Shown: one piece after another, positions 7,901 to 62,743 of the stretch
Position numbering within the stretch: the stretch's first letter is position 1
Layout of the letters: the number at the start of each line of letters is the position of its first letter
From: Arenicola marina
Lineage: Eukaryota; Annelida; Polychaeta; Arenicolidae
NCBI GenBank assembly: GCA_964019135.1
Contig: OZ025253.1
Span: forward strand, 6,515,059 to 6,579,058
Length of the DNA stretch: 64,000 bases
Direction: 5' to 3'
Translations under genes and position numbers: made by a program
Notes under the pieces: model-generated
Seen by the model: only the letters and a program-made list of their open reading frames with translations
The model's database searches: none
Told to the model about the DNA's origin: nothing

Positions 7901-8916
7901 CGTCCATGTTAGACATCACCCGTCGGCCATGTTAGACATCACTGGTCGTCCATGTTAGACATCACCCGTCGTCTACGTTAGACATCACCCGTCGTCCATG
8001 TTAGACATCACCCGTCGTCCATGTTAAACATCACTCGTCGTCCATGTTAGACATCACCCGTCGGCCATGTTAGACATCACTCGTCGTCCATGTTAGACAT
8101 CACTCGTCGTCTACGTTAGACATCACCCGTCGTCCATGTTAGACATCACCCGTCGGCCATGTTAGACATCACTCGTCGTCCATGTTAGACATCACTCGTC
8201 GTCCATGTTAGACATCACTCGTCGTCCATGTTAGACATCACTCGTCGTCTACGTTAGACATCACTCGTCGTCCATGTTAGACATCACTCGTCGTCTACGT
8301 TAGACATCACCCGTCGTCCATGTTAGACATCGTCGTCTACGTTAGACATCACTCGTCGTCTACGTTAGACATCACTCGTCGTCCATGTTAGACATCACTC
8401 GTCGTCTACGTTAGACATCACTCGTCGTCCATGTTAGACATCACTCCTCGTCTACGTTAGACATCACTCGTCGTCCATGTTAGACATCACTCCTCGTCCA
8501 TGTTAGACATCACTCGTCGTCCACGTTAGACATCACTCGTCGTCCATGTTAGACATCACTCCTCGTCCATGTTAGACATCACCCGTCGTCCATGTTAGAC
8601 ATCACCCGTCGTCTACGTTAGACATCACCCGTCGTCCATGTTAGACATCACTCGTCGTCCATGTTAGACATCACCCGTCGTCCATGTTAGACATCACCCG
8701 TCGTCTACGTTAGACATCACCCGTCGTCCATGTTAGACATCACTCGTCGTCTACGTTATACATCACCCGTCGTCCATGTTAGACATCACTCGTCGTCCAT
8801 GTTAGACATCACCCGTCGTCTACGTTAGACATCACCCGTCGTCTACGTTAGACATCACCCGTCGTCCGTGTTAGACATCACCCGTCTTCCATGTTAGACA
8901 TCACCCGTCGTCTATT
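4911..8916. repeat. 4-kb 23-bp minisatellite
   Basis: About 174 copies of a 23-bp unit with core TAGACATCACCCGTCGTCC. Variation is concentrated at CpG sites (CCACG/CCATG, ACCCG/ACTCG/ACCTG, CGTCG/CGTTG). Longer blocks of variant order recur, for example around 5150, 5820, 6390 and 7210, suggesting duplication of multi-unit segments. A short introductory repeat of GTGAGTGACTCCCGG type lies just before it at 4842-4910. Confidence 0.97.
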
Positions 8917-10146
8917 TCAACCCATATGTGCAGAAATGTGGCTGAAAACGCCAGTGCACTCTGCTCTGGAGGCGTGTTTGTATGGTATAAGGTATGTTTT
9001 CAGTAAATAGTCACGGAGAGCGGGGGAGTTTGGATGGATTCCTGGGCCATATGCAGGTCCGCGACGAGTAACGCCGGTGATTCTCAGATCCACGAATCTA
9101 TCGCCATAGGGTCCTTTGTCAGACTGATTCACGGTGCGAATCTACTGAAAGTTTTGCCAATCTACGTAGATTCGATAAATCTATTGATTTATGAATGGCG
9201 TGGGATGGCGTTACATCTGTAGTTTATTTAACACACACACCCGGGATCTTCGGACTCCGCGAATGTATCGGATAACATTCTTCCTGAGTGACATAATATG
9301 TGAGCTATACTCAAAGCGGACCAGGCCAGAATACACGGACGTCGACTGCTCACACTTCGCCCCCCTCCACCCCCCATCGCCAGCCCACTTTCCTCCTCTC
9401 CCCTCCCTCCTCCCCACCCTACCCCCGGCCTGCCTGCGCTTTGACAACCGAAGTGGCGACGCAGTCAGCACCGCGTGAACTCCCCAGCGACGCGTGAGTC
9501 GAGACCACGTGCTGCGGCGGACTGGTGGGAGGGAGTGGGGGGGGGTGGCGGCGGACTGGTGGGAGGGAGGGGGGGGGGGGGTGGCGGCGGACCTTTGCAT
9601 GGGGTGGGGGGTCCGGTGGGCTGGAGTGGAGTAGGCTTGGGGTGGTGTGGGATAGAGTAAAGTAGGGTGGTGGTGGGCCTGGGTGGGGTGGGGTGGGCTG
9701 GGGTGGAGTAGAGTAGGCTTGGGGCTGGTGTGGGGTGTGGGGTGTGGGGTAGGGTGTAAAGTCGACCCAGGAGAGTGGCGGGCCCAGATTCGCTGCTATG
9801 TGGGTAAATAACCCGCCGCGTGCCACGAGCAGACTCTCTGCACTCACTGCACGGCGGCATGGTAACCTGGACAGAGGGGGGGGGGGGGTTCAGCCCAGGC
9901 GATATCGAAAAATAATAACATAATCAACATTTCAAATACGCATTTCTCAATCTGACAAATTAGCAAACTTTGGGGATCGGGAGGGAGGCAGGGAGATCTG
10001 CCAGTGATGGAGAGAATTGTCGGAGGGGAGGAGGGGGCGGCCTCGGTCCCCGTCCCCCCTCCTCCGCCCTGGGCATTATTCCCCACCCTAGCGGCCCGGG
10101 CGCTCACCGATAACAGGGGCCAGATCCAGCTCTCAGCCACGGATGT
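8917..10146. other. Intergenic, with C-rich and G-rich low-complexity sequence
   Basis: No gene is supportable. 9358-9430 is a C-rich tract on the plus strand; 9520-9760 is a G-rich tract with GGTGGGCTGGGGTGGAGTA-type imperfect repeats. Proline-rich open frames across this stretch follow from base composition. Confidence 0.6.
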
Positions 10147-13100
10147 CATGGTAACCCCTCACTGTGTCATGGGGAAACGTTGTCATGGGAACCCCTCACT
10201 GTGTCATAGTAACCCCTCCATGTGTCATGGGAACCCCTCCCCGTGTCATGGGAACCCCTCCCCGTGTCATGGGAACCCCTCCCCGTGTCATGGGAACCCC
10301 TCCCTGTGTCATGGGAACCCCTCCCTGTATCATGGGAACCCGTCACTGTGTCATGGGAACCCCTCACTGTGTCATGGGAACCCCTCCCTGTGTCATGGGA
10401 ACCCCTCCCTGTGTCATGGGAACCCCTCCCTGTGTCATGGGAACCCCTCCCCGTGTCATGGGAACCCCTTGATGTGTCATGGGAACCCCTCCCTATGTCA
10501 TAGGAACCCCTTCCTGTGTCATGGGAACCCCTCACTGTGTCATGGGAACCCATCCCTGTGTCATTGGAACCCCTCACTGTATCATGGGAAACCCTCACTG
10601 CGTCATGGGAACCCTTCATTGTGTCATGGGAACCCCTCACTGTGTCATGGGAACCCTTCACTGTGTCATGGGAACCCCTCACCGTGTCATGGGAACCCCT
10701 CACCGTGTCATGGGAACCCCTCCCTGTGTCATAGGAACCCCTTCCTGTGTCATGGGAACCCCTCACTGTGTCATGGGAACCCTTCGCTGTGTCATGGGAA
10801 CCCCTCACCGTGTCATGGGGAAACGTTGTCATGGGAACCCCTCACTGTGTCATAGTAACCCCTCCATGTGTCATGGGAACCCCTCCCCGTGTCATGGGAA
10901 CCCCTCCCCGTGTCATGGGAACCCCTCCCTGTGTCATGGGAACCCCTCCCTGTGTCATGGGAACCCCTCCCTGTATCATGGGAACCCGTCACTGTGTCAT
11001 GGGAACCCCTCACTGTGTCATGGGAACCCCTGCCTGTGTCATGGGAACCCCTCCCCGTGTCATGGGAACCCCTTGATGTGTCATGGGAACCCCTCCCTGT
11101 GTCATAGGAACCCCTTCCTGTGTCATGGGAACCCCTCACTGTGTCATGGGAACCCCTCACTGTGTCAAGGGAACCCCTCACCGTGTCATGGGAACCCATC
11201 CCTGTGTCATTGGAACCCCTCACTGTATCATGGGAAACCCTCACTGCGTCATGGGAACCCTTCACTGCGTCATGGGAACCCCTCACTGTGTCATGGGAAC
11301 CCCTCACCGTGTCATGGGAACCCTTCACTGTTTCATGGGAACCCCTCACCGTGTCATGGGAACCCGTCACTGTGTCATGGTAACCCCTCACTGTGTCATG
11401 GGAACCCCTCACTGTGTCATGGGAACCCCTCACTGTGTCATGGGAACCCCTCCCTGTGTCATGGGAACCCCTCCATGTGTCATGGGAACCCCTCCCTGTG
11501 TCATGGTAACCCCTCACTGTGTCATGGTAACCCCTCACTGTGTCATGGGAACCCCTCACTGTGTCATGGTAACCCCTCACTGTGTCATTGGAACCCCTCA
11601 CTGTGTCATGGGAACCCCTTATGTAACCCCTCACTCTGTCATGGTAACCCCACGCTGTGTCATGGGAACCCCTCACTGTGTCATGGGAACCCCTCACTGT
11701 GTCATGGGAACCCCTCCCTGTGTCATGGTAACCCCTCACTGTGTCATGGTAACCCCTCACTGTGTCATGGGAACCCCTCACTGCGTCATGGTAACCCCTC
11801 ACTGTGTCATTGAAACCCCTCACTGTGTCATGGGAACCCCTCACTCTGTCATGGTAACCCCACGCTGTGTCATGGGAACCCCTCACTGTGTCATGGGAAC
11901 CCCTCACTGTGTCATGGGAACCCCTCACTGTGTCATGGGAACCCCTCACTGTGTCATGGTAACCCCTCACTGTGTCATGGTAACCCCTCACTGTGTCATG
12001 GGAACCCCTCCCCGTGTCATGGGAACCCCTCCCCGTGTCATGGGAACCCCTCCCTGTGTCATGGGAACCCCTCCCTGTATCATGGGAACCCTTCATTGTG
12101 TCATGGGAACCCCTCACTGTGTCATGGGAACCCTTCACTGTGTCATGGGAACCCCTCACCGTGTCATGGGAACCCCTCACCGTGTCATGGGAACCCCTCC
12201 CTGTGTCATAGGAACCCCTTCCTGTGTCATGGGAACCCCTCACTGTGTCATGGGAACCCCTCACTGTGTCAAGGGAACCCCTCACCGTGTCATGGGAACC
12301 CATCCCTGTGTCATTGGAACCCCTCACTGTATCATGGGAAACCCTCACTGCGTCATGGGAACCCTTCACTGCGTCATGGGAACCCCTCACTGTGTCATGG
12401 GAACCCCTCACTGTGTCATGGGAACCCTTCACTGTGTCATGGGAACCCCTCACCGTGTCATGGGAACCCGTCACTGTGTCATGGTAACCCCTCACTGTGT
12501 CATGGTAACCCCTCACTGTGTCATGGGAACCCCTCACTGTGTCATGGGAACCCCTCCCTGTGTCATGGGAACCCCTCCATGTGTCATGGGAACCCCTCCC
12601 TGTGTCATGGTAACCCCTCACTGTGTCATGGTAACCCCTCACTGTGTCATGGGAACCCCTCACTGTGTCATGGTAACCCCTCACTGTGTCATTGGAACCC
12701 CTCACTGTGTCATGGGAACCCCTTATGTAACCCCTCACTCTGTCATGGTAACCCCACGCTGTGTCATGGGAACCCCTCACTGTGTCATGGGAACCCCTCA
12801 CTGTGTCATGGGAACCCCTCCCTGTGTCATGGTAACCCCTCACTGTGTCATGGTAACCCCTCACTGTGTCATGGGAACCCCTCACTGTGTCATGGTAACC
12901 CCTCACTGTGTCATTGAAACCCCTCACTGTGTCATGGGAACCCCTCACTCTGTCATGGTAACCCCACGCTGTGTCATGGGAACCCCTCACTGTGTCATGG
13001 GAACCCCTCACTGTGTCATGGGAACCCCTCACTGTGTCATGGGAACCCCTCACTGTGTCATGGTAACCCCTCACTGTGTCATGGTAACCCCTCACTGTGT

Positions 13101-14492
13101 CATGGGAACCCCTCACTGTGTCATGGGAACCCCTCCCTGTGTCATGGGAACCCCTCCCTGTGTCATGGAAACCCCTCCATGTGTCATGGGAACCCCTCCC
13201 TGTGTCATGGGAACCCCTCCCTGTGTCATGGTAACCCCTCACTGTGTCATGGTAACCCCTCACTGTGTCATGGGAACCCCTCACTGTGTCATGGTAACCC
13301 CTCACTGTGTCATGGTAACCCCTCACTGTGTCATGGGAACCCCTCACTGTGTCATGGGAACCCTTCCCTGTGTCATGGGAACCCCTCCCTGTGTCATGGG
13401 AACCCCTCCATGTGTCATGGGAACCCCTCACTGTATCATGGGAACCCGTCACTGTGTCATGGGAACCCCTCCCTGTGTCATGGGAACCCCTCCCCGTGTC
13501 ATGGGAACCCCTTGATGTGTCATGGGAACCCCTCCCTGTGTCATAGGAACCCCTTCCTGTGTCATGGGAACCCCTCCCTGTGTCATGGTAACCCCTCACT
13601 GTGTCATGGGAACCCCTCACTGTGTCATGGGAACCCCTCCCTGTGTCATGGGAACCCCTCCCTGTGTCATGGGAACCCCTCACTGTGTCATGGGAACCCC
13701 TCACTGTGTCATGGGAACCCCTCCCTGTGTCATGGGAACCCCTCCATGTGTCATGGGAACCCCTCCCTGTGTCATGGGATCCCCTCCCTGTGTCATGGGA
13801 ACCCCTCCCTGTGTCATGGGAACCCCTCCCTGTGTCATGGGAACCCCTCCCTGTGTCATGGGAACCCCTCCATGTGTCATGGGAACCCCTCCCTGTGTCA
13901 TGGGAACCCCTCCCTGTGTCATGGGAACCCCTCACTGTGTCATGGGAACCCCTTGATGTGTCATGGGAACCCCTCCCTGTGTCATGGGAACCCCTCCATG
14001 TGTCATGGGAACCCCTCCCTGTGTCATGGGAACCCCTCACTGTGTCATGGGAACCCCTCCCTGTGTCATGGGAACCCCTCCCTGTGTCATGGGAACCCCT
14101 CCCTGTGTCATGGGAACCCCTCCCTGTGTCATGGGAACCCCTCCATGTGTCATGGGAACCCCTCCCTGTGTCATGGGAACCCCTCCCTGTGTCATGGGAA
14201 CCCCTCCCTGTGTCATGGGAACCCCTCCCTGTGTCATGGGAACCCCTCCCTGTGTCATGGGAACCCCTCCCTGTGTCATGGGAACCCCTCCCTGTGTCAT
14301 GGGAACCCCTCCCTGTGTCATGGGAACCCCTCCCTGTGTCATGGGAACCCCTCCCTGTGTCATGGGAACCCCTCCCTGTGTCATGGGAACCCCTCCCTGT
14401 GTCATGGGAACCCCTCCATGTGTCATGGGAACCCCTCCCTGTGTCATGGGAACCCCTCCCTGTGTCATGGGAACCCCTCCCTGTGTCATGGG
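10147..14492. repeat. 4.3-kb 21-bp minisatellite with higher-order structure
   Basis: About 206 copies of a 21-bp unit with core TGTGTCATGGGAACCCC. The unit length is a multiple of three and has no stop in most frames, giving long spurious open frames on both strands. Rare variants mark two higher-order repeats: the GGGGAAACGTTGTCATGG variant at 10171 and 10817 (646 bp apart), and the TGTGTCAAGG (11161, 12265) and CCTTATGTAACCCC (11617, 12721) variants, both exactly 1104 bp apart. The last kilobase (13.5-14.49 kb) is far more homogeneous than the rest, suggesting recent expansion at that end. Confidence 0.97.
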
Positions 14493-14548
14493 ACGGTACA
14501 GGACGACCACGGTATGTGATAATATAGCTCAGGTTTCAACCATTTGTC

Positions 14549-14985: not shown

Positions 14986-15357
14986 GTTGCAGATGTGGTT
15001 TGGGTTTGACTCAACCACGGAATCCAGCCTACCACCTTTGTCCATACGTGACCTTGAGATTGACCGCGTCAAGTTGACCTCCCTCGCCCCCTCGCCCCCT
15101 CGCACCCCGGTCTCCCTTCCCCCCGCCCAGCCTCCCGCCGCCGCGTTGTCGAGGTAGGTGGGAGGGAGGGGGAGGGGAAAGGTCCACACGCCTGGGCTTT
15201 AGATGCCTGGAGGATGGGTTGTGTAGGGTGGGAGCCCGGCGGGGTTGAGTGGGATGTGGAGAGAGGTCGGGTGTCGGGCCACCCTGGACTGACCGTTGGT
15301 ATTGTACACGCTGGGGCCGAAACGCGGCACCGTCGCCGGATGAGGGTGAAGCACGCA

Positions 15358-16322
15358 GGGCTGAGGGCGGAGGGCGGAGGGCGGAGGGCGGAGGGCGGAG
15401 ATGGGGGAGAGGGTGTAGGGCGGGGGGCGGAGGGCGGAGGGCGGAGGGCGGAGATGGGGGAGAGGGCGTAGGGCGGGGGGCGGAGGGCGGAGGGCTGAGG
15501 GCGGAGAGGGGGGAGGGCGGAGAGGGCGGAGGGCTGAGGGCTGAGGGCGTAGGGCGTAGGGCGGAGGGCGGAGGGCGGAGAGGGAGGAGGGCTGAGGGCG
15601 TAGGGCGGAGGGCGGAGGGCGTAGGGCGGAGAGGGAGGAGGGCTGAGGGCGGAGGGCGGAGAGGGGGGAGAGGGCGTAGGGCGGGGGGCGGAGAGGGCGG
15701 AGGGCGGAGGGCTGAGGGCGGAGAGGGCGGAGGGCGGAGAGGGCGGAGAGGGCGGAGGGCGGAGGGCGGATAGGGCGGATAGAGCGTAGGGCGGGGGCGG
15801 AGAGAGCGGAGAGGGCGGAGAGGGCGTAGGGCGGGGGCGGAGAGAGCGGAGGGCTGAGGGCGGAGAGGGCGGAGAGGGCGGAGGGCGGAGAGGGCGGAGA
15901 GGGCGGAGGGCGGAGAGGGCGGAGGGCGTAGGGCTGAGGGCGGAGAGGGCGGAGAGGGCGAAGAGGGCGGAGGGCGGGGGCGGAGAGAGCGGAGGGCTGA
16001 GGGCGGAGGGGGCGGAGAGAGCGGAGGACGGAGGGCAGAGGGCAGAGGGCAGAGGGCAGAGGGCAGAGGGCAGAGGGCAGAGGGCAGATGGCGGATGGCA
16101 GAGGGCAGATGGCAGATGGCAGAGGGCAGATGGCAGAGGGCAGAGGTCAGAGGTCAGAGGGCAGAGGGCAGAGGGCAGAGGGCAGAGGGCAGGGGCAGAA
16201 GGTGGAGGGCGGAGGGCGGAGGGCGGAGGGCGGAGGGCGGAGGACGGAGGGCGGGGGACGGAGGGCGGAGGGTGGAGGGCGGAGGACGGAGGGCGGAGGG
16301 CGGAGGGCGGAGGGCGGAGGGC
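15358..16322. repeat. 7-bp satellite (GGGCGGA)n, block 1
   Basis: A purine-rich array of GGGCGGA units interrupted by GGGCTGA, GGGCGTA and GGGCAGA variants. It grades from GGGCGGA to GGGCAGA at 16030-16195 and back. It abuts the SINE fragment at 16322. Confidence 0.95.
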
Positions 16323-16476
16323 ATGTCTGTGTGGTCGCAGGATAAAAATCCCATGTCCTTCTTCGCAAAGAGTAGGGGGTTAACCCCGGGGGACATGGTC
16401 CCACTCTCCCTTCCCTCTCTCACTGACGCGATATGACCAAAGGTGGTTAAAGCGTCCACAATATACAACCAACCAA
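16322..16476 (+). mobile_element. tRNA-derived SINE, 5'-truncated copy (family A)
   Basis: The body matches two other copies in the window (22598-22810 and 52780-53003): TGTGTGGTCGCAGGATAAA, then CCATGTCCTTCTTCGCAAA, then GACGCGATATGACCAAA, then a tail built of ACAACCAACCAAC. The tRNA-like head with the B box is missing here; the 7-bp satellite sits in its place. Confidence 0.85.
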
Positions 16477-22597: not shown

Positions 22598-22810
22598 CAG
22601 GGGGCGGCCCGGTAGCTAATGACACGTGGATCTGTGGTTCGCGCCCCGCTGCGGCCATGTCTGTGTGGTCGCAGGATAAAGTTCCCATGTCCTTCTTGGC
22701 AAAGAGTAGGGGGTTACCCCGGGGACATGGCTCCACTCTCCGTTCCATTTCCCGTTGACGCGATATGACCAAAAAGTGGTCAAAGCGTCCTGAATATACA
22801 ACAAACAACC
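22598..22810 (+). mobile_element. tRNA-derived SINE (family A), near full length
   Basis: Head with a weak A-box-like segment (CGGTAGCTAATGAC, 22609-22622) and a B box GGTTCGCGCCCC at 22636-22647, 20 to 30 bp apart as in a shortened tRNA head. The body matches the other two copies: TGTGTGGTCGCAGGATAAA, GGGGTTACCCCGGGGACATG and GACGCGATATGACCAAA. It ends in an ACAACAAACAACC tail. Pol III promoter geometry defines it as a SINE; it encodes no protein. Confidence 0.85.
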
Positions 22811-30942: not shown

Positions 30943-43501
<12,559 letters not shown>

Positions 43502-44255
43502 GGTGATCTGTTTAATGCTGGAATTTAGTTCCTAGCTGGTAAATCGTAGACCGTCTCGCTCGTCTGACAGCTGAAAGCCGGTAGCGGAGTTGGCATGCGA
43601 TGTAGGGTTTCGTATTTTCAAATAATGTTAGTGTATTTTAGCCAAATGATAGCCACTTTAAACTAAAGAAAAATAACGCGGTTGTAATGAAATAAATTAA
43701 TAAGCCAACAATCAAGGTGAATGACCGTTGATGTTTTAGATGAAAAAATCACACTCGTGAGATCACTCATCATTTTCGGATTATTTTCCCAGCATGCATC
43801 ATACTTCCCGCAATTTACGGACGGACGCGGGTTTGTTTACAGCTAAACAGCCAGGGGCTGAGCAGTGGAAAAACTAAACTTCTACTGTTGACAGTAAATG
43901 AATTAACAGTTTTCACGTTGAATGCTACCCTGCACTTAAGCAGTTAAGTGGTCCGTCAATATTGCTGGTAACGATATCCTGATTTCCACACTTGAAGCAC
44001 TTCGAATGCAAGCCAGAACGGGTGGCCGAACGGGTTACCCTGTTAAACAGTAGGCTGTTCCATTAGTGATTACTAAGACTTACTGTCTTACTACTAAAAA
44101 AAAGTCAAAGTCATAAATGCCGTAGACTCACGTTTTGACCCATATTTTCGGCGAATTTGGCGCGATCGCTCTAAAAATCACTGACCTGACAAAGCAACCA
44201 TGTGCAATTTTAATGATACCAAACTTACGTGTGTACTGTGAGCTTATCCTTTTTT

Positions 44256-45918: not shown

Positions 45919-48900
45919 ATGCCACTTCAGTCAAGGAGTAGACAAAATCAAAAGAGAAAATCATCATCTTTGGAAATTGAACAAACAGAATTAACTGATG
46001 ATAATATGTCAAAAATCAGTACTAGACAATCTATCAAAATCAGAAAGATTGAAGAAGAGAACAAGGCCAGGAAAAATGATAATTTAATCCCAACAAAAGG
46101 TGAAGCTGCGAAATGTGACTCTGAGAAGCCCTGCAAAGACCTGAAGAAGCTGGATGGACAAGCAAATAACAAGAAAATGAATGCAAAAGCCACAGAACTA
46201 AATGAAACATGTTCAAAGCACTATGAGGGTGATGATATTTCCACAAGATCTACATTGTCCTTTGACTTGTTTGCAAGGATATATCACCATAAACACTCAA
46301 CGCAAGCTGTTTCACCTATGACATATAGAACTGCCACACAAAGTTCACACCAGAGCATAAACATGGCACATTTGTTGGAACATGTGGTGTTGGGAAGAAC
46401 TATTCAAAGGAAACTAAAACAGGTGCCTCATATGGTTGATGGTTGAATTTGGATTCAGTCTGTAGATGAAGTTACAAAAAGCTGATGAACAGTGCTCAAA
46501 TGAACCCAAAATTCGCCCAAATATTGATGTGCATCTATCAGTATTAATACAATTTTTGTTTATATATGTATATTTTTAGCATGCAGATAACGGATCATTT
46601 ATGTATAGTTGATATCACAATTCATCTAATTTAATAATGGAATGACTATGACGATTATGCTCGTTCCATATCTGAAACGGGTGTAGCTTCTACGTTTCGA
46701 AGCTGGAACTATGACTATGTAAGCTCCTAATGTTGTGGCGTTTCACTTCAGTCGTTGTCATCTCCGGTCACCAGCATTGTGAGGGAGCTGCAGCTGTTCC
46801 GAACGGCGAGTCCGTTTGACAGACGCTGTACAGCCATGGAGTGGCACCCCTCCAACCCCAGACTGCTCGCGGCGGGCTCCAAAGGGGGTGACGTTATCGT
46901 GTGGAACACGGAATCCATACATAACGATGTCTTTATACCTGGAGTAAGGCTGGAACCAGTTTACCTTTTTACCGATGTACCGTTGTTCTTTTGCATTTAA
47001 TATTGAACACGGAATCCATACAAAGGTATGACAGAAGGTTTGCACTGGGAAAGGATCTTTTATGCTAGTAAGCGATTTTAATCGTGTCTGATTGAAAACA
47101 TGGTGCAAATACTACATATCTGGTATGGATAAAGATGTCTGTATTTTAAGCGTAATTGCCTCTACTGTCTTGGTTCACTATTGATGTTACGTGGTCTCGT
47201 TCGGTAAGTAACGGGGACTGAGCAGAGTCGAAGGAGATTAGCATAAAAGTTCGTATTTCAAACGCTACTGAACGGGTTTGCATTGTGGTTTCCTCCACTT
47301 TCCACAAATGATGGTTTCGTTGTGTCCCCCACAGACCGGTCCGGGAGGCTCTATACAGGCCTTGAAATTTCTGCCAAACGACCACAAGAAGCTGGTCACT
47401 GCGTCCATCGACGGTACTGTGACGGTGCATGACGTCACAGACAAGCCTAGGGATGTCCTATTGGACACCATGAATTACATGAAGTAAGTAGGGTCAGTTG
47501 CGAAGTTCTGGCCGTTCACAGCACTTCACACCTTTATTACTTTATAACGGCTACGAGGATAGTATTTCGCGTTGTTCTTTGAAATACATGTATGTGTGGG
47601 AAATAGTGTTCATAATATTTAAATTGCTGTTTTGACATATATTCTGGTTTACCCGATCTTTTTACATATAATCTGGTTTACCCGATCTTTTTACATAAAT
47701 ATACAGTGCGCACCACTTGTCGCACTTGGGTTAATCGCAACTTCCGCTTAACCGCAACAATTCTAAAATCCAAACGCCATTTCCTATACATTCGGATGAT
47801 TGGCATTGAGCAACGCGCCGCAGGTTTCAATAAGACAACTGATGAGTGCGATGATGTTCATAATCAAAGAAGTATGCCTAATCTCATTGCCCTGCAACAT
47901 GTAAACTGTTCGGGTCCTCCCTTGATTATGGAGATGATAGGACGAGATGTTGCTTATGCAAAATTCATTGCGACTTTCATGAAAGATTCATGTGCAATGA
48001 AATGTGTCTAATCCCTTTGTTCTTGGGTTGTTTGTCACGCGCTGTGATGTAAGACGTTATAACATATAGGATGCTGCTGTCGCCTATGGACTGCAGGCAC
48101 CAAATACGGCTTCACTATACGATCATGGCCAAACAATAAGGAGGCTACGGCGAATTCGAACAGTTTTACAACTTAGAAGCTGACATCCATGAGTCAGTGA
48201 CAGCCAAAACCAAACAGAAGATGATTACACACTGTTTGATCGATTGAGCTAATCGTCAAAATATTTTTTTTCAATGACGAGCAGTGTTTATGATGCATGT
48301 TTAGCGTATACATGTGTATCTGAAGCGTATATAACCCCAATACGTGTACATGTATATACATGTAAATGTTATTCATTCTGATAAACTTCGGTTAATTGCA
48401 ACTTTTTTGCTGACAAACGGAAGTTGCAATTAAGCGTAGTGCACTGTATATATGTATTCAGACACGCATTGTGAAACAGCAACTCCCTGCTGACGGACTG
48501 CCAGCATGGCTTCATCAATGGAAGGGTCTGCATCACGAACCTGTTATCTGTTCTCAACGACTATACCATGGCCACAGACAAGGGCCTGCCGCTTGACGCC
48601 ATTTACTTAGACTTTGCGAAGGCATTTGACACAGTACCCCATTGTCGATTACTAAGAAAACTGCAGGGCTACGGGGTGACTGGCAATGTATTGAGGTGGT
48701 TAGGCATTAATGACCTACCAGAATCAGTGGAATCCAGTTGCTGTATGTTCGCAGACTATACAAAGGTATATCGAACAGTTGCTAGTGAGGACGATCAGAG
48801 GTGCCTGCAAAATGACCTTGATAGTCTGTCTGACTGGTCCGCCTCGTGGCAGTTGAAGTTCAATGCTGGCAAGTGCAAAGTTATGCATTTGGGCAGAGCC

Positions 48901-51900
48901 AACGGGCAGGCAACCTACAAGATGGGATCAGCAGCAGGAGAGGTTACCCTCGAAACAACAAACATTGAGAAAGATCTGGGCGTACATTTTGACCCCGCAC
49001 CGAAATTCTCCCACCACACTGAGTTACAGGTCAATATAGCCAATCGTTTGTTAGGCCTAATCAGACGTTCTTACGAGTACTTGGATACGCAGTCTCTGAA
49101 ACTATTGTACAGATCCCTGGTGAGACCACATCTTGAGTACTCTGTTTCCGTCCCCAATGCTAATTCAAGATCGGAAATTTATTGAAGGAGTTCAAAGGCG
49201 AGCTACAAGGCTTCTGGTCGACTTGCGAGAAAAAACATTCGAGAAGAGGTGTGGAAGTATCTCCATGGGAAATACCAAACAAACTGCCCGCTCAAGTTAC
49301 AGGGTGAAAGCAACACAAGGGGACACAGCCTAAAGCTAGACAAGGAGGCATGCAGGACAGAATTGCCCCAACACTTTTTTCCCTTCGAGTAACCGAAACC
49401 TGGAACTACCGGAAATGTAATAACGGCCCCCCTCACTGTATTGTATCAAGGGAAGGTTGGACACAGTCTGGCGACAGCACCTCTACACCCAAGACTTGTA
49501 TTTTCCCTCCTCAGTAAATCAATAAATCCTCCAGTCCTGCGGTATGTTTTGCACAGATATAAATGTAAAAGCGTTGCTTAAAAGCCACGACCAGCTGATA
49601 GGCTTCCAACCTGACTGTACACCTGTATCAGATGTATGTATGTATGTGTGACTTGCGTGACGTACATCACAAGTATATGGCAGGCCAAACATTTCATTAT
49701 TCCCGATTTATATTGTAACATATTTGCCTGTAAGACGTCAAGTACCGTACCTTAAAATGCGACATGTTATGCATCTGCAGGCACTGGTACTGCAGTCTGG
49801 ACGTGAGCCGCAGGCGTTCTCTTCTCGTGACTGGAGACAACCTCGGAAAAATGACGCTTTTATCCAAGGAGGGGAAACAGGTTGGCGTTGTATATGTTTT
49901 TCGGGTTAAGACGGCGGATAATTACATTGTGGACAGATGCAAACGTTAATATGCCTGTTGTGCTATGCTACAGATAATGCATACAGCTATTCACCACAAA
50001 CTAATAAATAAGATTGTTGCATTTATTAAAGGAACGATTAAAAACAAACAAAAAATCTGTCTGACAAGGATCAAATACTGATGTAATAAGATAATGTAAT
50101 GTAGCAACATTTTCCTGATAATTGAGTTGGAGAACCTATCGTTTGAGTATTGTTTTTCGAAATAAAAAATCCTGCAGGTCTGACATAGGGTCAAATACCG
50201 ATTTATATAAAAGGATTTATATTGATGAATTGCGATGATTTGGAGAAGCTATTGATTGAGTACTGATGTTAAAATCATTTTCATCTCTGCCAGATCTTCA
50301 ATCTGAAAGTTCACAAGCAGAAGATAACGAACACTAAGTTCAGTCCGCGAGAAGACTGGTTGTTGTGTTCGGCGTCTGTGGACCGATGTGTCATGCTGTG
50401 GGACATCCGCATGCTGAAGGACAAACACAGCGCCTTGGTGACCTTGAAACACGACAAAGGCGTCAACTCTGGTAGGTTGCCATGGCGACTACACGTGACG
50501 CGCTGTGACAGTATTGCGCTGAGTGACAAGTCGGGATATTATTTAGAGTGCAGGTACCGTAGCTAAATAATGTAATATTTAATATTTTTCTTCAGTTTAT
50601 GCATGCTCCAGTTACATACAAAACTGGGGACCTGAATGTACTGAAATTAGAAGGCACTATGATAAAAATGAGATGTTGAAGTTACAGTCTCGAAACACTC
50701 GCCGCATGTGCATTGATGCCATGAAAAATTGTTCATATAGGGTTCTAATGATGTTTAAATGTGACCTAACCTCAGAGAAATCTACCAACAACTTCCAATT
50801 CACCCATGTTATTCGTGCTGTGTTTCGCGGGTGTCAGCGTACTTTAGTTTGACGAACGGCTGTCGACTGCTGACGACTGACCAGCACCACGAAATCCGAG
50901 TGTACGACACTGCCTCCTGGACCCTGGAGCGGATTATCGACCACCCCCACCGCGTCTTCCAGCACATCACGGCCATCAAGGTATCGCCCAACTAACCAGC
51001 ATACATCAGGGAGATCAGTCCAACGCTTCAGGTTTGGTTCTGAATACTAATCCCGTACGTCGGGATAGCTCCTTACTACGTTGATCCTTCCTAAATGAGT
51101 GACACAAACAGTCCCGGTTGCAGTTGTCCTTCACAAGGCAAAGAAACTAAGCCATGGAGTGATGCAAGAAACTCACATTAACACACGTAATTTACCATGA
51201 TATGAATATATGCTTTTTATTCCCATATACACAACTTCTACACATCATATCAATGTTGAAATGCGGTTGCACGTTGGCCCCGTTTCTTTCTTGTTATTAA
51301 CAATGACGAGCCTTAATCCCCATGATACGGAGACTTTAGACCTGCGTGACACGCTGGATTGGTTTGAACGCACAGCTACATTCAGATACGTTCAGGCCAT
51401 ACTTTGTTCCTTTCTCTTCAGGCCCAGTGGCACCCTCTCCACGACCTGATCGTGGTCGGCCGGTACCCGGACCCCAAGTTGCCGGGGCACACAGAGGGGG
51501 AGAAGAGAACAATAGACGTGTTCTGTGCCGACAGTGGCGCCCTCGTGTGTCAGTTACAGGACCCAGGCGCCACCGGTATCGTCTCGGTCAGTCGCGCTTC
51601 TTTTTCTTTCTTTTTTCTTCGAGAAAAGGCTTTCTACGCCGAGAGGTGTGATAGTGTACATATATATATATATATGTACACTATGTCTACAACATGGGGC
51701 AAAGATAAGTTCCGGCCCATAACTTAACTGTGTATCATACTTTAGGTGTTATTTCCAATACATAAGTACCACCGATAAAGCAACCACCTGTATATGCCAC
51801 CATCACGTGGACGGGTCAGCGAGGCGCATGCGTAAGATCAAGAGAAAAATCCAAGACACTCTCCCCTTTTCTATTTTCGAAACTATGCAATAACAGTCTA

Positions 51901-54068
51901 GCAAATAGGGCCGCCTGATAACTCAGTGGCCACTCGATAGCTCAGTGGCCACCTGATAGCTCAGTGGCCACCTGATAGCTCAGTGGCCACCTGATAGCTC
52001 AGTGGCCACCCGATAGCTCAGTGGCCGCCTGATAGCTCAGTGGCCACCCGATAGCTCACTGGCCACCCGATAGCTCAGTGGCCACCCGATAGCTCAGTGG
52101 CCACCCGATAGCTCAGTGGCCACCTGATAGCTCAGTGGCCACCCGATAGCTCAGTGGCCACCCGATAGCTCAGTGGCCGCCTGATAGCTCAGTGGCCACC
52201 AGATAGCTCAGTGGCCACCCGATAGCTCAGTCGCCACCTGATAGCTCAGTGGCCACCCGATAGCTCAGTGGCCGCCCGATAGCTCAGTGGCCGCCTGATA
52301 GCTCAGTGGCCACCCGATAGCTCAGTGGCCACCCGATAGCTCAGTGGCCACCTGATAGCTCAGTGGCCACCTGATAGCTCAGTGGCCACCCGATAGCGCA
52401 GTGGCCACCCTTATAGCTCAGTGGCCACCCGATAGCTCAGTGGCCGCCTGATAGCTCAGTGGCCACCTGATAGCTCAGTGGCCGCCTGATAGCTCAGTGG
52501 CCACCTGATAGCTCAGTGGCCACCCGATAGCTTAGTGGCCACCCGATAGCTTAGTGGCCACCCGATAGCTCAGTGGCCACCCGATAGCTCAGTGGCCACC
52601 CGATAGCTCAGTGGCCGCCTGATAGCTCAGTGGCCACCTGATATCTCAGTGGCCACCCGATAGCTCAGTGGCCACCCGATAGCTCAGTGGCCACCTGATA
52701 GCTCAGTGGCCGCCTGATAGCTCAGTGGCCACCCGATAGCTCAGTGGCCACCTGATAGCTCAGTGGCCACCTGATGGCTCAGTGGCCACCTGATAGCCAA
52801 ACGGCACGGGGTTTGGAGGTTCGAGCCCCGGTGTGGTCATGTCGGTGTGGTCGCAAGATAAAGATTCCATGTCTTTCTTCTCAAATAGTAGGGCGTTACC
52901 CCTGCGGACATGGCTCCGCTCGTCTATTGCTTTTCCCATTGAGGCGATATAACCAGAATTGGTCAAGCGCCCTGAATGTACAACAAATTAAACCAACCAA
53001 CAGTCTAGCAAGCGCTTTAAAAATATGTCTATTTTGACTGCATTTAATATATATTTGAATTTTTTGTCATCGGCAACAAAATGTGAGACAAAAAAGCTTA
53101 AGGGAGTTCCGTCGTGATAGCCACTTCCGGGAGGGGGCAAGGGGGGGGTGGGGTGGGGGTCGTGTTCTCAGATCACGAAGAAGATATTTCGCACTCCGGA
53201 GGAACGTAAATACCCCTTGCCACCCCCCGGTTCTATAGCCGTGTAAAATAGGATGATGGAGCGGGAACGGCGCTTCTTCATCTTTGGATGGGTGTCATCC
53301 GTCCGGTGGCGGTAAATGACGGATTGGCAGATGATGTTATCGTAGCTGAGGTGGTCTCATTCATTATGCGGGATGTGCGGCTTGCAGCGACACTAGCCGA
53401 GATCATACTGACACACAGTCGTCGCATCGCTGTCCTGTCGTTGGGTCTTCGCTATTCTCTATAATATAGCTATTAAGTAATCATGCTTATTTTTAGTTTC
53501 GGATATGGGTACAAGTGGACGGGGTAGTCCAATTCACTATCGAGATAATGTTCTGATACACTCTTTTGTCTGTTTGTTATCCAAATAGCTGAATGCATTT
53601 CACCCGAATGGAGACTCCATGGCATCATCAATGGGTAATTCAAAGGTTCTTCCATCTCGCTATAAACTTTTGATTATTTAACTTTAAAATATCACTGAAT
53701 CAAGCTGTTGTCTAATTACTATTTAAACTTATCTGCAACGTGGCGTAAATCTAAATCAGCAAAAAAATTAAAACGAAAGTGAAAGTACGTATTCCATGAT
53801 GACAGGCTTTTGTTTTTAAAATTCACACGCAGGTGTCAACATTTTATTGTGGAAGAGAGCGGAAGAGGTAGAGAGTAAACAAGCCGCGCTAATAAAAGAT
53901 CTAAAAAAGTTTGCCGCCGACGCCAACGGGACGCCCTCAGGTCAGTCTGATCGAAGCTCAGGTTCAAGTTCAAGATCGCGTTCAAGACAGACGAAGGAGA
54001 CCAAGACAAAGAAAGCCCCATCGACTGACACAGAGAAGCTAAAAATGAAACTAAAGAAGAACTCTTAG
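45919..54068 (+). CDS. DDB2: DNA damage-binding protein 2 (UV-damage sensor), complete, nine coding exons
   Basis: DDB2 recognises UV photolesions in chromatin and, with DDB1-CUL4-RBX1, starts global-genome nucleotide excision repair. Coding exons: 45919-46422, 46752-46943, 47335-47483, 49781-49880, 50294-50471, 50838-50980, 51422-51586, 53589-53634, 53833-54068 (stop TAG 54066-54068); every join is in phase, giving 570 residues. Diagnostic blocks: [37 protein letters not shown], a DDB1-binding DWD-type WDIR (351-354, with the Arg whose human counterpart is mutated in XP-E) and the lesion-probing loop [10 protein letters not shown] with FQH at 415-417. The protein is longer than human DDB2 (427): the basic N-terminal exon has 168 residues and may hold the DDB1-binding helices in [17 protein letters not shown], and a C-terminal tail of about 60 residues is Ser/Arg- and Lys-rich. 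A TTG upstream of ATG 45919 lies at the splice acceptor and is not a start. Confidence 0.96.
47704..48446. mobile_element. Tigger/pogo-like non-autonomous DNA transposon in DDB2 intron 3
   Basis: Flanked by TA on both sides (47702-47703, 48447-48448). The left end CAGTGCGCACCACTTGTCGC and the right end, read inverted, CAGTGCACTACGCTTAATTG share the CAGTG terminus and the downstream AATYGCAACTTCCG block. The right end is near-identical over about 50 bp to the left end of the MITE at 41721. The 743-bp body has only short open frames and no recognisable transposase. Confidence 0.8.
48475..49260 (+). pseudogene. CR1-like LINE reverse transcriptase fragment, internally deleted
   Basis: The frame from about 48489 encodes QHGFINGR, then [12 protein letters not shown] (motif A of the RT domain), then jumps directly to [10 protein letters not shown] and FADYTKVYR. 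The block with the motif B glycine (QGSVLGP region) is missing, a deletion of about 40 residues, and the catalytic FADD reads FADY. The downstream [17 protein letters not shown] and [14 protein letters not shown] blocks follow in order as in CR1-type LINEs; the frame ends with a stop at 49185 and [13 protein letters not shown] follows in another frame. A dead 5'- and 3'-truncated copy, sense to DDB2. Confidence 0.88.
51912..52790 (+). repeat. 19-bp minisatellite derived from a SINE A-box (DDB2 intron 7)
   Basis: About 46 copies of the 19-bp unit GATAGCTCAGTGGCCACCC (variants CACCT, CGCCT). Each unit contains TAGCTCAGTGG, which matches the RNA polymerase III A-box consensus (TRGCNNAGYNGG) of tRNA genes. 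The array runs without a break into the head of the intact family-A SINE at 52780-53003, so the unit appears to be the A-box part of that SINE amplified in tandem. Confidence 0.95.
52780..53003 (+). mobile_element. tRNA-derived SINE (family A) at the end of the A-box array
   Basis: The last array unit forms its A-box region (GGCTCAGTGGCCACCTGATAG), followed by a B box GGTTCGAGCCCC at 52818-52829, then the family body (GTGTGGTCGCAAGATAAA, GAGGCGATATAACCAGAA) and an ACAACAAATTAAACCAACC tail. The A to B spacing is close to that of a tRNA gene. Same family as 16322-16476 and 22598-22810. Confidence 0.88.
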
Positions 54069-57012: not shown

Positions 57013-60000
57013 CTATGATGCTTTCTTGGTGTCCTGTCGGTGGTGAAAATTCTCCATGGTACGGTCGACGCCCGTGAAGCGATGCAGAGCCAGCAGTGCC
57101 TTTTCGGGAATGAGGCTGCAGAAAGAAAATAGTGAGGAACGGAGGACCGTATGTAATGGGTATGATCGTATGAGCTAGGGGAGGGAACGTTTCTTTCAAA
57201 TGCAACAAATATGTCAGATAAATTTAAAGATGGTATGCAAGAACTGGGTATTGTGTTTATAGGTAATAAAATCTATTACTTCGCTGCATATAATTAAATT
57301 TTATTCCAGGAAATTTTATGGAAATCAGGCTTGTAAGATATTGAAAATATAGAATCACACCGGTGTGTAAGTCGCGGCGTTTTTTCCGCGAGCGACTCCC
57401 GCAAAGATGGAGAAGTACATCTCCCCGTACGACCAACCTGATATAGTCAGGTGCCTACATAGCAGCAATTACGGCAATTAAGTAATGAGTATCACTAAAA
57501 CTACAAAAAAAATGCGCCGGCGTCGCCCCAATATATTATCACTATTGTCTGCTCGATTACGACAGTGCGCACCGCCCCAATATATTATCACTAATGCCTA
57601 CTTGATTACGACAGTGCGCACCGCCCCAATATATTATCACTAATGCTTGCTAGATTCCGACAGTGCGCACCGCCCCAATATATTATCACTAATGTCTGCT
57701 TGATTACGACAGTGCACGCCACTCCAATATATTATCACTAACGCTTGCTTGATTTCGACAGTGCACGCCACCCCAATATTTATTATCACTAATGTCTGCT
57801 TGATTACTACAGTGCACGCTACCCCAATATATTATCACTAATGTCGGCTTGATTACGACAGTGCGCACCGCCCCAATATATTATCACTAATGTCTGCTTG
57901 ATTACGACAGTGCGCACCGCCCCAATATATTATCACTACCGCTTGCTTGATTACTACAGTGCGCACCGCCCCAATATATTATCACTAATGTCTGCTTGAT
58001 TACGACAGTGCGCACCGCCCCAATATATTATCACTAATGTCTGCTTGATTAAGACAGTGCGCACCGCCCCAATATATTATCACTAATGTCTGCTTGATTA
58101 CGACAGTGCACACCGCCCCAATACATTATCGCTAATGTCTGCTTGATTACGACAGTGCGCACCGCCCCAATATATTATCACTAATGCTTGTTTGATTACG
58201 ACAGTGCACGCCACCTCAATATATTATCACTAATGCCTGCTCGATTACGACAGTGCACGCCGCCCCATTATATTATCACTAATGCTTGTTTGATTACGAC
58301 AGTGCGCGCCGCCCCAATATATTATCACTAATGCCTGCTCGATTACGACAGTGCACGCCACCCCAATATATTATCACTAATGTCTGCTCGATTACGACAG
58401 TGCACGCCACCTCAATATATTATCACTAATGCTTGTTTGATTACGACAGTGAGCGCCGCCCCAATATATTATCACTAATGTCTGCTCGATTACGACAGTG
58501 CACGCCAGCCCAATATATTATCACTAATGTCTGCTCGATTACGACAGTGCACGCCACCCCAATATATTATCACTAATGCTTGTTTGATTACGACAGTGCG
58601 CGCCGCCCCAATATATTATCACTATTGTCTGCTCGATTACGACAGTGCACGCCACCCCAATATATTATCACTAATGTCTGCTCGATTACGACAGTGCACG
58701 CCACCCCAATATATTATCACTAATGCTTGTTTGATTACAACAGTGCGCGCCGCCCCAATATATTATCACTAATGTCTGCTCGATTACGACAGTGCGCGCC
58801 GCCCCAATATATTATCACTAATGTCTGCTCGATTACGACAGTGCACGCCAGCCCAATATATTATCACTAATGTCTGCTCGATTACGACAGTGCACGCCAC
58901 CCCAATATATTATCACTAATGCTTGTTTGATTACCACAGTGCGCGCCGCCCCAATATATTATCACTAATGTCTGCTCGATTACGACAGTGCACGCCACCC
59001 CAATATATTATCACTAATGTCTGCTCGATTACGACAGTGCACGCCACCCCAATATATTATCACTAATGCTTGTTTGATTACGACAGTGCGCGCCACCCCA
59101 ATATATTATCACTAATGTCTGCTCGATTACGACAGTGCGCGCCGCCCCAATATATTATCACTAATGTCTGCTTGATTACGACAGTGCGCGCCGCCCAAAT
59201 ATATTATCACTAATGCTTGATTACGACAGTGCGCCCCCCCACCCCAATATATTATCACTAATGCTTGATTACGACAGTGCACGCCGCCCCAATATATTAT
59301 CACTAATGCTTGTTTGATTACGACAGTGCGCGCCGCCCCAATATATTATCACTAATGCTTGTTTGATTACGACAGTGCGCGCCGCCCAAATATATTATCA
59401 CTAATGCTTGATTACGACAGTGCGCCTCCCCCCCCCCAACCCAATATATTATCACTAATGCTTTTTTTTATTATGACAGTGCACGCCGCCCCAATATAGT
59501 ATCACTAATGCTTGTTTGATTACGACAGTACGCGCCGCCCCAATAGATTATCACTAATGTCTGCTCGATTACGACAGTGCACGCCAGCCCAATATATTAT
59601 CACTAATGTCTGCTCGATTACGACAGTGCACGCCACCCCAATATATTATCACTAATGCTTGTTTGATTACGACAGTGCGCGCCGCCCCAATATATTATCA
59701 CTAATGCTTTATTACAACAGTGCGTGCCGCCCCAATTTTATTATCACTAATGCCTGCTCGATTACGACAGTGCACGCCACCCCAATATATTATCACTAAT
59801 GCTTGTTTGATTACGACAGTGCACGCCACCCCAATATATTATCACTAATGTCTGCTCGATTACGACAGTGCGCGCCGCCCCAATATATTATCACTATAAA
59901 TGCCTGCTCGATTACGACAGTGCACGCCGCCCCAATATATTATCACTAATGCTTGTTTGATTACGACAGTGCGCGCCGCCCAAATATATTATCACTAATG

Positions 60001-62743
60001 CCTGCTCGATTACGACAGTGCACGCCACCTCAATATATTATCACTAATGCCTGCTCGATTACGACAGTGCACGCCACCCCAATATATTATCACTAATGTC
60101 TGCTCGATTACGACAGTGCACGCCACCCCAATATATTATCACTAATGTCTGCTCGATTACGACAGTGCACGCCACCCCAATATATTATCACTAATGCTTG
60201 CTGATTACGACAGTGCGTGCCACCCCAATATATTATCACTAATGTCTGCTCGATTACGACAGTGCGCGCCGCCCCAATATATTATCACTAATGCCTGCTC
60301 GATTACGACAGTGCGCGCCACCCCAATATATTATCACTAATGCTTGTTTGATTACGACAGTGCGCGCCGCCCAAATATATTATCACTAATGCCTGCTCGA
60401 TTACGACAGTGCACGCCACCCCAATATATTATCACTAATGCCTGCTCGATTACGACAGTGCACGCCACCCCAATATATTATCACTAATGTCTGCTCGATT
60501 ACGACAGTGCGCGCCGCCCCAATATATTATCACTAATGCCTGCTCGATTACGACAGTGCACGCCGCCCCAATATATTATCACTAATGCTTGTTTGATTAC
60601 GACAGTGCGCGCCGCCCAAATATATTATCACTAATGCTTTATTACAACAGTGCGTGCCGCCCCAATATATTATCACTAATGCCTGCTCGATTACGACAGT
60701 GCACGCCACCCCAATATATTATCACTAATGTCTGCTCGATTACGACAGTGCACGCCACCCCAATATATTATCACTAATGCTTGTTTGATTACGACAGTGC
60801 GTGCCACCCCAAGTTGTAATAGCCACTGACCACTTGATGATGTTGTTGAGGAACATGAGTCTGGGGATGATGACCATGCGCTGGTTCCGCAGGATTGAGT
60901 CCACGGTCCTCCACGCCACGTAGTCCTTGTCCAGAGCAGGGAACAAGCGCGGGAACCTGCGCATCGTGAAACACCGTCAGCCATGCCAAAGAAGTATACT
61001 GAGTGATCGGTTGCTATACATTCATGTGAAACACAATTAAAGGTATGACATCAACAGTTATCGACCAATGGGGCAATTTGGGTTTATCTTCTGGCTATAT
61101 CCCGCCAATAGAGACCCTGGAATTCATACACAAGGGGAGTTGTAGGGCGCAGTAAGCTGTATGTGCGATATCTTTGCATAACCTATGTATTATGATATAA
61201 ACTCAGAAATTGATGAAGCGCTCCTACACAAATATGTTTTCCCCATTTCGTTATATATTATTCCCTTTTATCTAAGCATAACAATGTACTTGAAATGTCC
61301 CAGTGCTTCTGCATAGGTCTCAATAACTGCTTATCGTGACATAAAATGCCTGCTTTAGGACCCAAGGTAATATGATGTATGACAAGCAATATTCTTATAT
61401 TGATCATCTTTTGATAAGAATTGACCTGGTACGATGTCATTTCACTAAGATCTCGTAACTTTTGCTCGTAAAATATAAAAAATGAAGAATGATAAATTCA
61501 TCATAAATATATGATATATTTAAAGTTGCATGTCGAGCTTTTTCCCGCCAAAACTAATGAGGTCAAAATACAAATAACAATCAGTCCTTGAATCGTTCAA
61601 GATTTCTTTTGTCTATACTCCACCCATGCCAGACTGCCAAATAGTGTGTCTTAGCTATGCCCGTGATATCAATTTACCACAAGTTTTCATCTTAGTGGTA
61701 AACGTCATCAGTTTGTGTGCTTCGCGATGCTTTGGTATAAGTAACCGTGCCGCGACAGAGTTCTGTGGTGTCCGGGGATAGACAAGTTTGCCACACCACT
61801 CGACATGCAACTTCAACATATTTAAAAATAATATTGGTGGAAACCAAATTGCGCGAGGATGACTGCCCCCCAATAATGGCCGTATAACGCTTATTTCCGT
61901 GGATCGTCAACCTACGATCTGTCGTTAAATTAGCATGTAAAATTAAGATATGGTTACGAGCTCGCAATTCTTAGTGAAACGATCCCAGGTTTCAGGTGAG
62001 TTAATTAAGAGACGACGCCTACTTACCGCGTCGTACAACCAGCAAACATATCTGTGTTAATCAAATAAGGGTGGACTGACGTGACGTGGACATTGTTCTT
62101 GCGTTCCTTCATTATCTCGATGGCCAAGGATTCCACGAAGCCCAGCTGACCGAACTTGGATGCCACATAGTCCGCCGCACCGCTGAGCCCCATCAGACCC
62201 AGGACTGAGTTCATGAAGACCAGGTGTCCGCAGTTCTTCTCCAGCATCTCCGGCAAGAAGGCCTGCGTGGTCTAGGAGTATAGAAGTTGAAAGATGCATT
62301 AATTAGGCCAACTGCGTTCACGTATGGACCAGATAAATCTAACCGTGAGAGCTCCTGATAAAAAGGCGAGAAAGATATGTGGGATCAAATTATCTGGAAA
62401 AAGAAGTGACATACATCTTGAGATTGGATTACATGGACCACTGTGTGTTTTGTTCGCACATCCACAAAACAATTTCGTGAGATATTAGGATTGCTGTCTA
62501 TAGGCATACATCACCTTGAATATATTGCCATACTTTTCTGTCAAAGAGGCCTTCAGGCGTTAAATCAATATATAGCAATGCAAGTTTCACAACAGGTCCT
62601 ACCCAAAAGACGGCCGTTGTGTTGACAGCAATAGTTTTCTCAACCTCTTCCTTGCGGCTTTCTAATATACTGTTTCCAAAGACAACACCTGCATTGTTTA
62701 TCAACATGGTAACTGGGCCAAATTTCTGTTTAACTTCTGCAGC
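57013..62743 (-). CDS. Short-chain dehydrogenase/reductase, SDR16C / retinol dehydrogenase type, 3' part
   Basis: NAD(P)-dependent oxidoreductase, probably acting on retinoids, steroids or other lipids at the endoplasmic reticulum membrane. Minus-strand exons: 62743-62603, 62271-62027, 60956-60831, 57115-57013 (stop 57015-57013); phases fit and give the last 204 residues. Visible family marks are the NNAG motif (MLINNAGVV), NTTAVFW|TTQAFLPEM, the catalytic Ser in MNSVLGLMG and the YxxxK pair in DYVASKFG, then SVHPYLINTDMF. The C-terminal block FPRLFPALDKDYVAWRTV..IIPRLMFL..RFTGVDRTMENF resembles SDR16C5, RDH10 and HSD17B11. The 5' exons with the TGxxxGxG cofactor loop lie beyond the right edge or in the last 1.2 kb unrecognised. 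Intron 57116-60830 is mostly minisatellite. Exact substrate cannot be told. Confidence 0.92.
57513..60812. repeat. 3.3-kb 49-bp minisatellite in the SDR gene intron
   Basis: About 67 units of 49 bp with core AATATATTATCACTAATG, then CTGCTCGATTACGACAGTG and CACGCCACCCC. Variants include GTGCGCGCCGCC/GTGCACGCCACC (CpG-centred), CTGCTCGATT/CTTGTTTGATT, and several shortened units near 59210, 59405, 59705 and 60635. The array ends only about 18 bp from the splice donor of exon 60956-60831. Confidence 0.97.
60957..62026. other. SDR gene intron, nothing recognised
   Basis: AT-rich intron between the exons at 62027 and 60956. No repeat, transposon or RNA is supportable by eye. Confidence 0.5.

Follow-up and report, generated by a model that had tools for sequence, protein, structure and literature searches.

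An intron of the DDB2 gene in Arenicola marina holds a tandem array of 46 full 19-bp units that runs directly into the body of a tRNA-derived SINE, and a single target-site duplication encloses both. The best explanation, to which we give a probability of about 0.9, is that a SINE copy inserted into the intron, that it had or later acquired a short head, and that hybrid 19-bp units grew in place from this head, with no role of Pol III needed. From the sequence, we infer that the array most likely has no function and is an inert minisatellite.

Array and host intron

The window, by which we mean the whole 64,000-nucleotide stretch of DNA that was analysed, was searched with TRF, which reported a period of 19 at 51909-52797 with 46.7 copies and 93% matches. 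By TRF and unit parsing, the array (51909..52783, on the plus strand, as is every feature of the element given below) consists of 46 full units with the consensus GGCCACCYGATAGCTCAGT; 45 of these are 19 bp long, and one, at 52403, is 20 bp. A terminal partial unit, GGCCACCTGATAGCCAAACGG, follows at 52784..52804 and is the element's own internal motif, which reads GGCCACCTGAGAGCCTAACGG in the SINE majority. The sequence-only reading had counted about 46 copies of a 19-bp unit with an A-box-like word, and this count stands: TAGCTCAGTGG, which we take to be an A box by its consensus, occurs exactly 38 times within the slice 51909-52797. The last A-box-like site of the array, TGGCTCAGTGG (52775..52785), lies 32 bp from the B box. 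Minisatellites consist of highly similar tandem units of roughly 10-100 bp, and length polymorphism is typical of them but not obligatory. With 46.7 copies of a 19-bp unit at 93% matches, the array has the units of a minisatellite.

Variation among 45 units is concentrated at two positions. Position 5 is A in 36 units and G in 9, and position 8 is C in 23, T in 21 and A in 1. At all other positions, variants appear in at most 2 of the 45 units, and 9 of 765 sites differ. The order of the variants gives no visible block structure that would record a pattern of growth, and a higher-order repeat within the array was rejected: the longest repeated block is 3 units, as compared with a mean of 3.6 in shuffles.

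The array is the only one of its kind in the assembly. A two-unit pattern, searched at up to 3 mismatches in the 867-Mb genome, gave 44 matches, all 44 of them inside the DDB2-intron array, and no second 19-bp two-unit locus was found at this threshold. Occurrence of the array at loci free of SINEs had been set beforehand as evidence against its descent from a SINE head; the pattern is found at no other locus.

The intron spans 51587..53588 (about 2 kb), with GT/AG boundaries read from the sequence, and the element lies in the sense orientation of the gene. The upstream exon (...GATGIVS) ends at 51586 before GT, and the next exon, which encodes 16 protein letters, begins at 53589 after AG. When three flanking exon pieces were joined into one peptide, it matched 8 distinct PDB sequences, every one of them named DDB2, with a best E value of 1.2e-26 over the whole query, in agreement with the assignment of the intron to DDB2 in the sequence-only reading. 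Two other coding-like regions were seen by eye in the window. An open frame at 48475-49185, which lies among DDB2-like frames upstream of the array, resembles a LINE reverse transcriptase fragment, and frames at 39310-43531 on the minus strand resemble triosephosphate isomerase exons.

A SINE enclosed by one target-site duplication

Exact copies of the 13-bp sequence AACAGTCTAGCAA lie at 51892..51904 and 52999..53011, and these are its only occurrences in the window (two on the plus strand, none on the minus strand). We interpret them as the 5' and 3' copies of a target-site duplication. The whole retroposed element between them (51905..52998) is composed of an amplified SINE head, a SINE body and an AACC-type tail, the latter two at 52805..52998. 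The element had previously been delimited as 51912..53003; its true extent is 51905-52998, plus the target-site duplications. Since array, body and tail are all enclosed by the duplication, the array is part of a single inserted element and not an older array next to which the SINE inserted.

The proposed continuity of the array with a SINE that has a single B box is borne out by the junction, where the last unit runs into the SINE body. The one B box, GGTTCGAGCCC, is located at 52818..52828, and its identity, like that of the A box, is presumed from the promoter consensus. An additional sequence at 52794-52804, TAGCCAAACGG, 13 bp from the B box, also fits the A-box consensus. Neither ARAGORN (bacterial setting) nor Rfam found a tRNA in the window. 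Target-site duplications at both ends, A and B boxes (by their consensus) and membership in a dispersed high-copy family identify the element as a tRNA-derived SINE.

This SINE had been described as intact, but its A box is joined straight to an internal GGCCACC motif (CTCAGTGG^CCACCTGA), and it lacks a 28-bp segment that is present in the 21 long-head copies that we aligned, which are long-headed by selection.

Parent SINE family and short heads

The family to which the element belongs is abundant: the genome contains 2814 exact copies of a 22-mer from the SINE head. For comparison, we aligned 21 long-head copies, namely L004 and 20 of 39 further long matches, which were the best-scoring ones bar two. 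As the best matches to one long-head copy, these sequences are long-headed by selection and biased toward well-kept copies. Their majority head consists of GGGGCCGCCCCGATAGCTCAGTGG, then a 26-nt segment, GTTAGAGCGCTCGCATTGAGTGCTCT, and then GGCCACCTGAGAGCCTAACGG and the B-box region; most of the copies have AACC-type tails (by eye). Presence of the A-box word in the SINE head at other loci had been set beforehand as a check. TAGCTCAGTGG is exact in 19 of the 21 copies, so the word is not absent from the SINE consensus. Together with the enclosure of the array by the target-site duplication, this result bears out the earlier suggestion of a local amplification from the SINE head.

From 52783 onward, the window SINE differs from the majority of the 21 copies at 27 of 199 sites (13.6%), versus 2.0-6.5% for the comparison copies measured against their own majority. 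While the body is diverged by 13.6%, the target-site duplication is perfect (13/13), and this fits poorly with a very old insertion. Other SINE copies are present in the window at 22623-22805 (81% identical) and at 16319-16472 (77% identical); the latter begins where a 7-bp array (15357-16322) ends.

The missing 28-bp segment has TGG triplets at its ends. For the majority form of the 28-nt segment, folding gives a stem of 10 bp (-15.7 kcal/mol, z -5.1), and the segments of four single copies gave z scores of -2.4, -2.1, -3.9 and -1.4.

Short heads that are not amplified exist elsewhere in the genome. A pattern that spans the short-head junction gave 1275 matches at up to 3 mismatches, many of which are not short heads; 5 are exact, including the window's own. 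We inspected 9 of the 17 non-window matches with 0 or 1 mismatch, and all 9 are short-head SINEs, as the junction pattern by which they were chosen selects. Loci L044-L046 share flanks and are near-duplicates, and therefore the 9 represent 7 independent short-head loci. By eye, L042 and L044 are each flanked by a separate target-site duplication. A second 19-bp unit was found in none of the 9 loci, each taken as 3 kb of sequence.

Origin of the 19-bp unit

In the short head, GGCCACCTGAGAGCC comes immediately after GGCCGCCCCGATAGCTCAGT, such that two similar motifs lie about 19 bp apart. When the one extra C of the head is gapped, positions 5 and 8 are the two among the first ten at which the joined motifs differ. 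Given that the array units vary mainly at these same positions, the array probably arose from an imperfect dimer of the joined motifs.

These observations suggest the following course of events. A tRNA-derived SINE copy would have inserted into the DDB2 intron and generated the 13-bp target-site duplication. The copy either had or later acquired a short head, which lacks the 28 bp that otherwise separate the A box (AGTGG) from the internal GGCCACCTGAGAGCC; this hairpin segment may have been lost by slippage between the TGG triplets. Such a deletion would bring GGCCGCC.CGATAGC and the similar motif GGCCACCTGAGAGC to a spacing of about 19 bp. Hybrid 19-bp units could then arise if slippage or unequal exchange took place between the two motifs, and these units would have expanded in place to 46 copies.

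A different order of events is that the SINE RNA already contained the array and that the whole was retroposed together, in which case the locus would be a copy of an amplified source element. Enclosure of array and body by a target-site duplication is equally expected from such a history. However, a pair of such units at up to 3 mismatches was found nowhere else in the genome. Moreover, the units are nearly identical (9 of 765 sites), as opposed to the 27 of 199 sites that differ in the body, and expansion or homogenization after insertion is thereby favoured. We therefore consider retroposition of an amplified element improbable and prefer growth of the units in place.

We also examined whether the head resembles itself at the periods that arrays adopt. 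In the short head, offset 19 ranks first, with 11 of 17 positions identical, but this is not above chance, as 49% of the shuffled sequences score 11 at one offset or another. For a long head with CGCC, offset 30 ranks first, and for the majority long head (CGCA), it is tied at 10 of 17 with four other offsets. Because shuffles often reach equal identity, the idea that head self-similarity sets array periods is unproven and is offered only as a suggestion.

Other tandem arrays and the Pol III question

Arrays of SINE-like words recur in this genome. Pairs of TAGCTCAGTGG within 42 bp number 349. At least 11 loci, including the DDB2-intron array, have two or more pairs, and some of these have only three or four units; this count comes from 100 of 349, 100 of 219 and 58 of 58 matches listed. 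At least six single pairs were also seen among the matches listed. Unit lengths differ among the A-box-word arrays, for example, 38 bp at C2:5.20 Mb, 27 bp at C4:45.33 Mb and 24 bp at C7:11.40 Mb. The sequence GGTTCGA is absent from the 291 and 361 bases fetched at the ends of the 27-bp C4 array, which indicates that no visible SINE body with a B box need accompany an A-box-word array.

Two further arrays derive from the same SINE head (loci L069 and L071, among the matches listed): one with a 29-bp unit at C6:44397814-44402503 (44.40 Mb) and one with 29/30 bp at C10:19704934-19706567 (19.70 Mb). Each runs straight into the SINE body. The C6 array is made up of two similar blocks about 3.0 kb apart.

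Words from other parts of the SINE also occur in arrays. Pairs of the B-box 11-mer number 469 in the genome, and the first 100 listed fall in three arrays of putative SINE descent, at C1:3.69 Mb, C2:27.48 Mb and C2:57.42 Mb. The last of these extends at least over C2:57416576-57420226, with a 40-bp period, GGTTCGAGCCC in every unit and at least 89 pairs. An 11-mer from the 3' SINE body, CATTGACGCGA, forms 74 pairs, which are distributed over a 31-bp array at C13:36.08 Mb (C13:36079822-36082498; 55 pairs), a 38-bp array at C14:28.21 Mb (C14:28209272-28210308; 16 pairs) and three single pairs. By eye, the 38-bp C14 unit is SINE body sequence throughout. Reversed patterns, used as controls, gave 89 matches on one strand with the A-box word, 2 with the B-box word and none with the body word; as the first of these numbers demonstrates, even an 11-mer without meaning may turn up in an array. 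We tentatively read the recurrence of A-box arrays as a consequence of the abundance of SINE and tRNA sequences.

The B box is the main determinant of stable TFIIIC binding, and Pol III transcripts end at TTTT. At extra-TFIIIC (ETC) sites, TFIIIC occupies a B box and Pol III is absent. Against this background, we considered the earlier suggestion of a cluster of weak Pol III/TFIIIC contact sites in the intron, in the form of a proposal that such a cluster is functional and has an effect on DDB2. Such a cluster might be imagined as a landing strip, in which the one B box would anchor TFIIIC and the 46 A-box-like sites would serve as alternative or weak contacts. Array length might then tune local Pol III occupancy and thereby the elongation or splicing of the DDB2 transcript. 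The 38 exact copies of TAGCTCAGTGG, the sense orientation of the array within the intron and the recurrence of A-box-word arrays across the genome are all compatible with a cluster. On the other hand, the element has a single B box, where stable binding would mainly rest, and its body contains a terminator-like TTTT run (52931..52934) that appears at these columns in none of the 21 aligned copies. Neither the single B box nor this run points to a strengthened Pol III unit. Because arrays of the B-box word and of the 3' body exist in the same genome, A-box content is not what makes arrays, and selection of a Pol III cluster for its A boxes was rejected. The proposal was thus not upheld: as far as the nucleotides can tell, a functional contact cluster is very unlikely, and we attach an equally slight probability to the landing strip. 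Our literature search for a paper that joins extra TFIIIC sites, the A box, the B box and a tandem SINE found none. A Pol III role would have been surprising, and it is not supported.

The window itself is rich in tandem repeats, with TRF intervals over 44% of its length. The long minisatellites have units of 34 bp (235 copies, 31352-39239), 21 bp (10144-14493), 23 bp (174 copies, 4912-8912) and 49 bp (67 copies, 57520-60812). This crowding is what might speak for a pre-existing minisatellite with a SINE inserted alongside, or for a chance junction, but the unit is SINE head sequence and the target-site duplication lies outside the array (unless that repeat arose by chance), which leaves this explanation with almost no probability.

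Relation to known SINE-derived repeats

The array, which we explain by growth in place from a short SINE head, belongs to a known kind, the SINE-derived tandem repeats; its readable seed and the recurrence of related arrays are what make it interesting. Bois et al. (1998) reportedly described a mouse VNTR derived from B1, and Jurka and Gentles (2006) are said to have described human minisatellites derived from Alu. In the available portions of later sources, Alu and B1 minisatellites are attributed to slippage or unequal exchange between short repeats (PMC9659126, PMC6947457), and 7,276 of 31,472 human minisatellites are counted as TE-derived, with repeats that can come from any TE region (PMC3389668). 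Like these mouse and human examples, as cited in the same portions (PMC9659126, PMC6947457, PMC3389668), the DDB2-intron array expanded within a SINE. It differs in its SINE and its unit, and its seed appears after the loss of a head segment.

A closer parallel in architecture is provided by the squamate sSats of Vassetzky et al. 2023 (PMC10702118). According to the part of that report available to us, these are tandem repeats formed from part of a tRNA-related SINE, and a longer terminal unit extends through the SINE as far as its end. Most variants are of independent origin and come from different parts of SINEs, and it is uncertain whether SINE-derived satellites are restricted to squamates. 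The DDB2-intron unit likewise is SINE-derived, and its terminal unit continues into the SINE. In contrast, the sSats have units of 67-215 bp and a subtelomeric preference, whereas the array described here has a 19-bp unit drawn from the head only and lies at one locus in an intron. This locus is at 6.57 Mb of a 46.5-Mb contig. The sSats derive from Squam1-3 SINEs at many loci, and the A. marina SINE is likened to these by architecture only. We do not file the array as an sSat, because its two-unit pattern is found at one locus only.

Xenopus Satellite 1/OAX and Hydromantes Hy/Pol III are also tandem DNAs that are said to have a tRNA-related origin (PMC9659126, PMC10702118). In the portions of these sources at hand, the Hydromantes unit is about 200 nt and the Xenopus unit is long, as compared with 19 bp here, and both are judged inconclusive examples (PMC10702118). 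Unlike either, as they are described there, the DDB2-intron array has its parent SINE present and bracketed by a target-site duplication.

The locus offers a readable minisatellite birth, in that the parent SINE, the unamplified short head elsewhere and the final array are all found in one genome. With other arrays from the same SINE head and body also at hand, this genome could be used to test what sets the period and the place of new tandem repeats.
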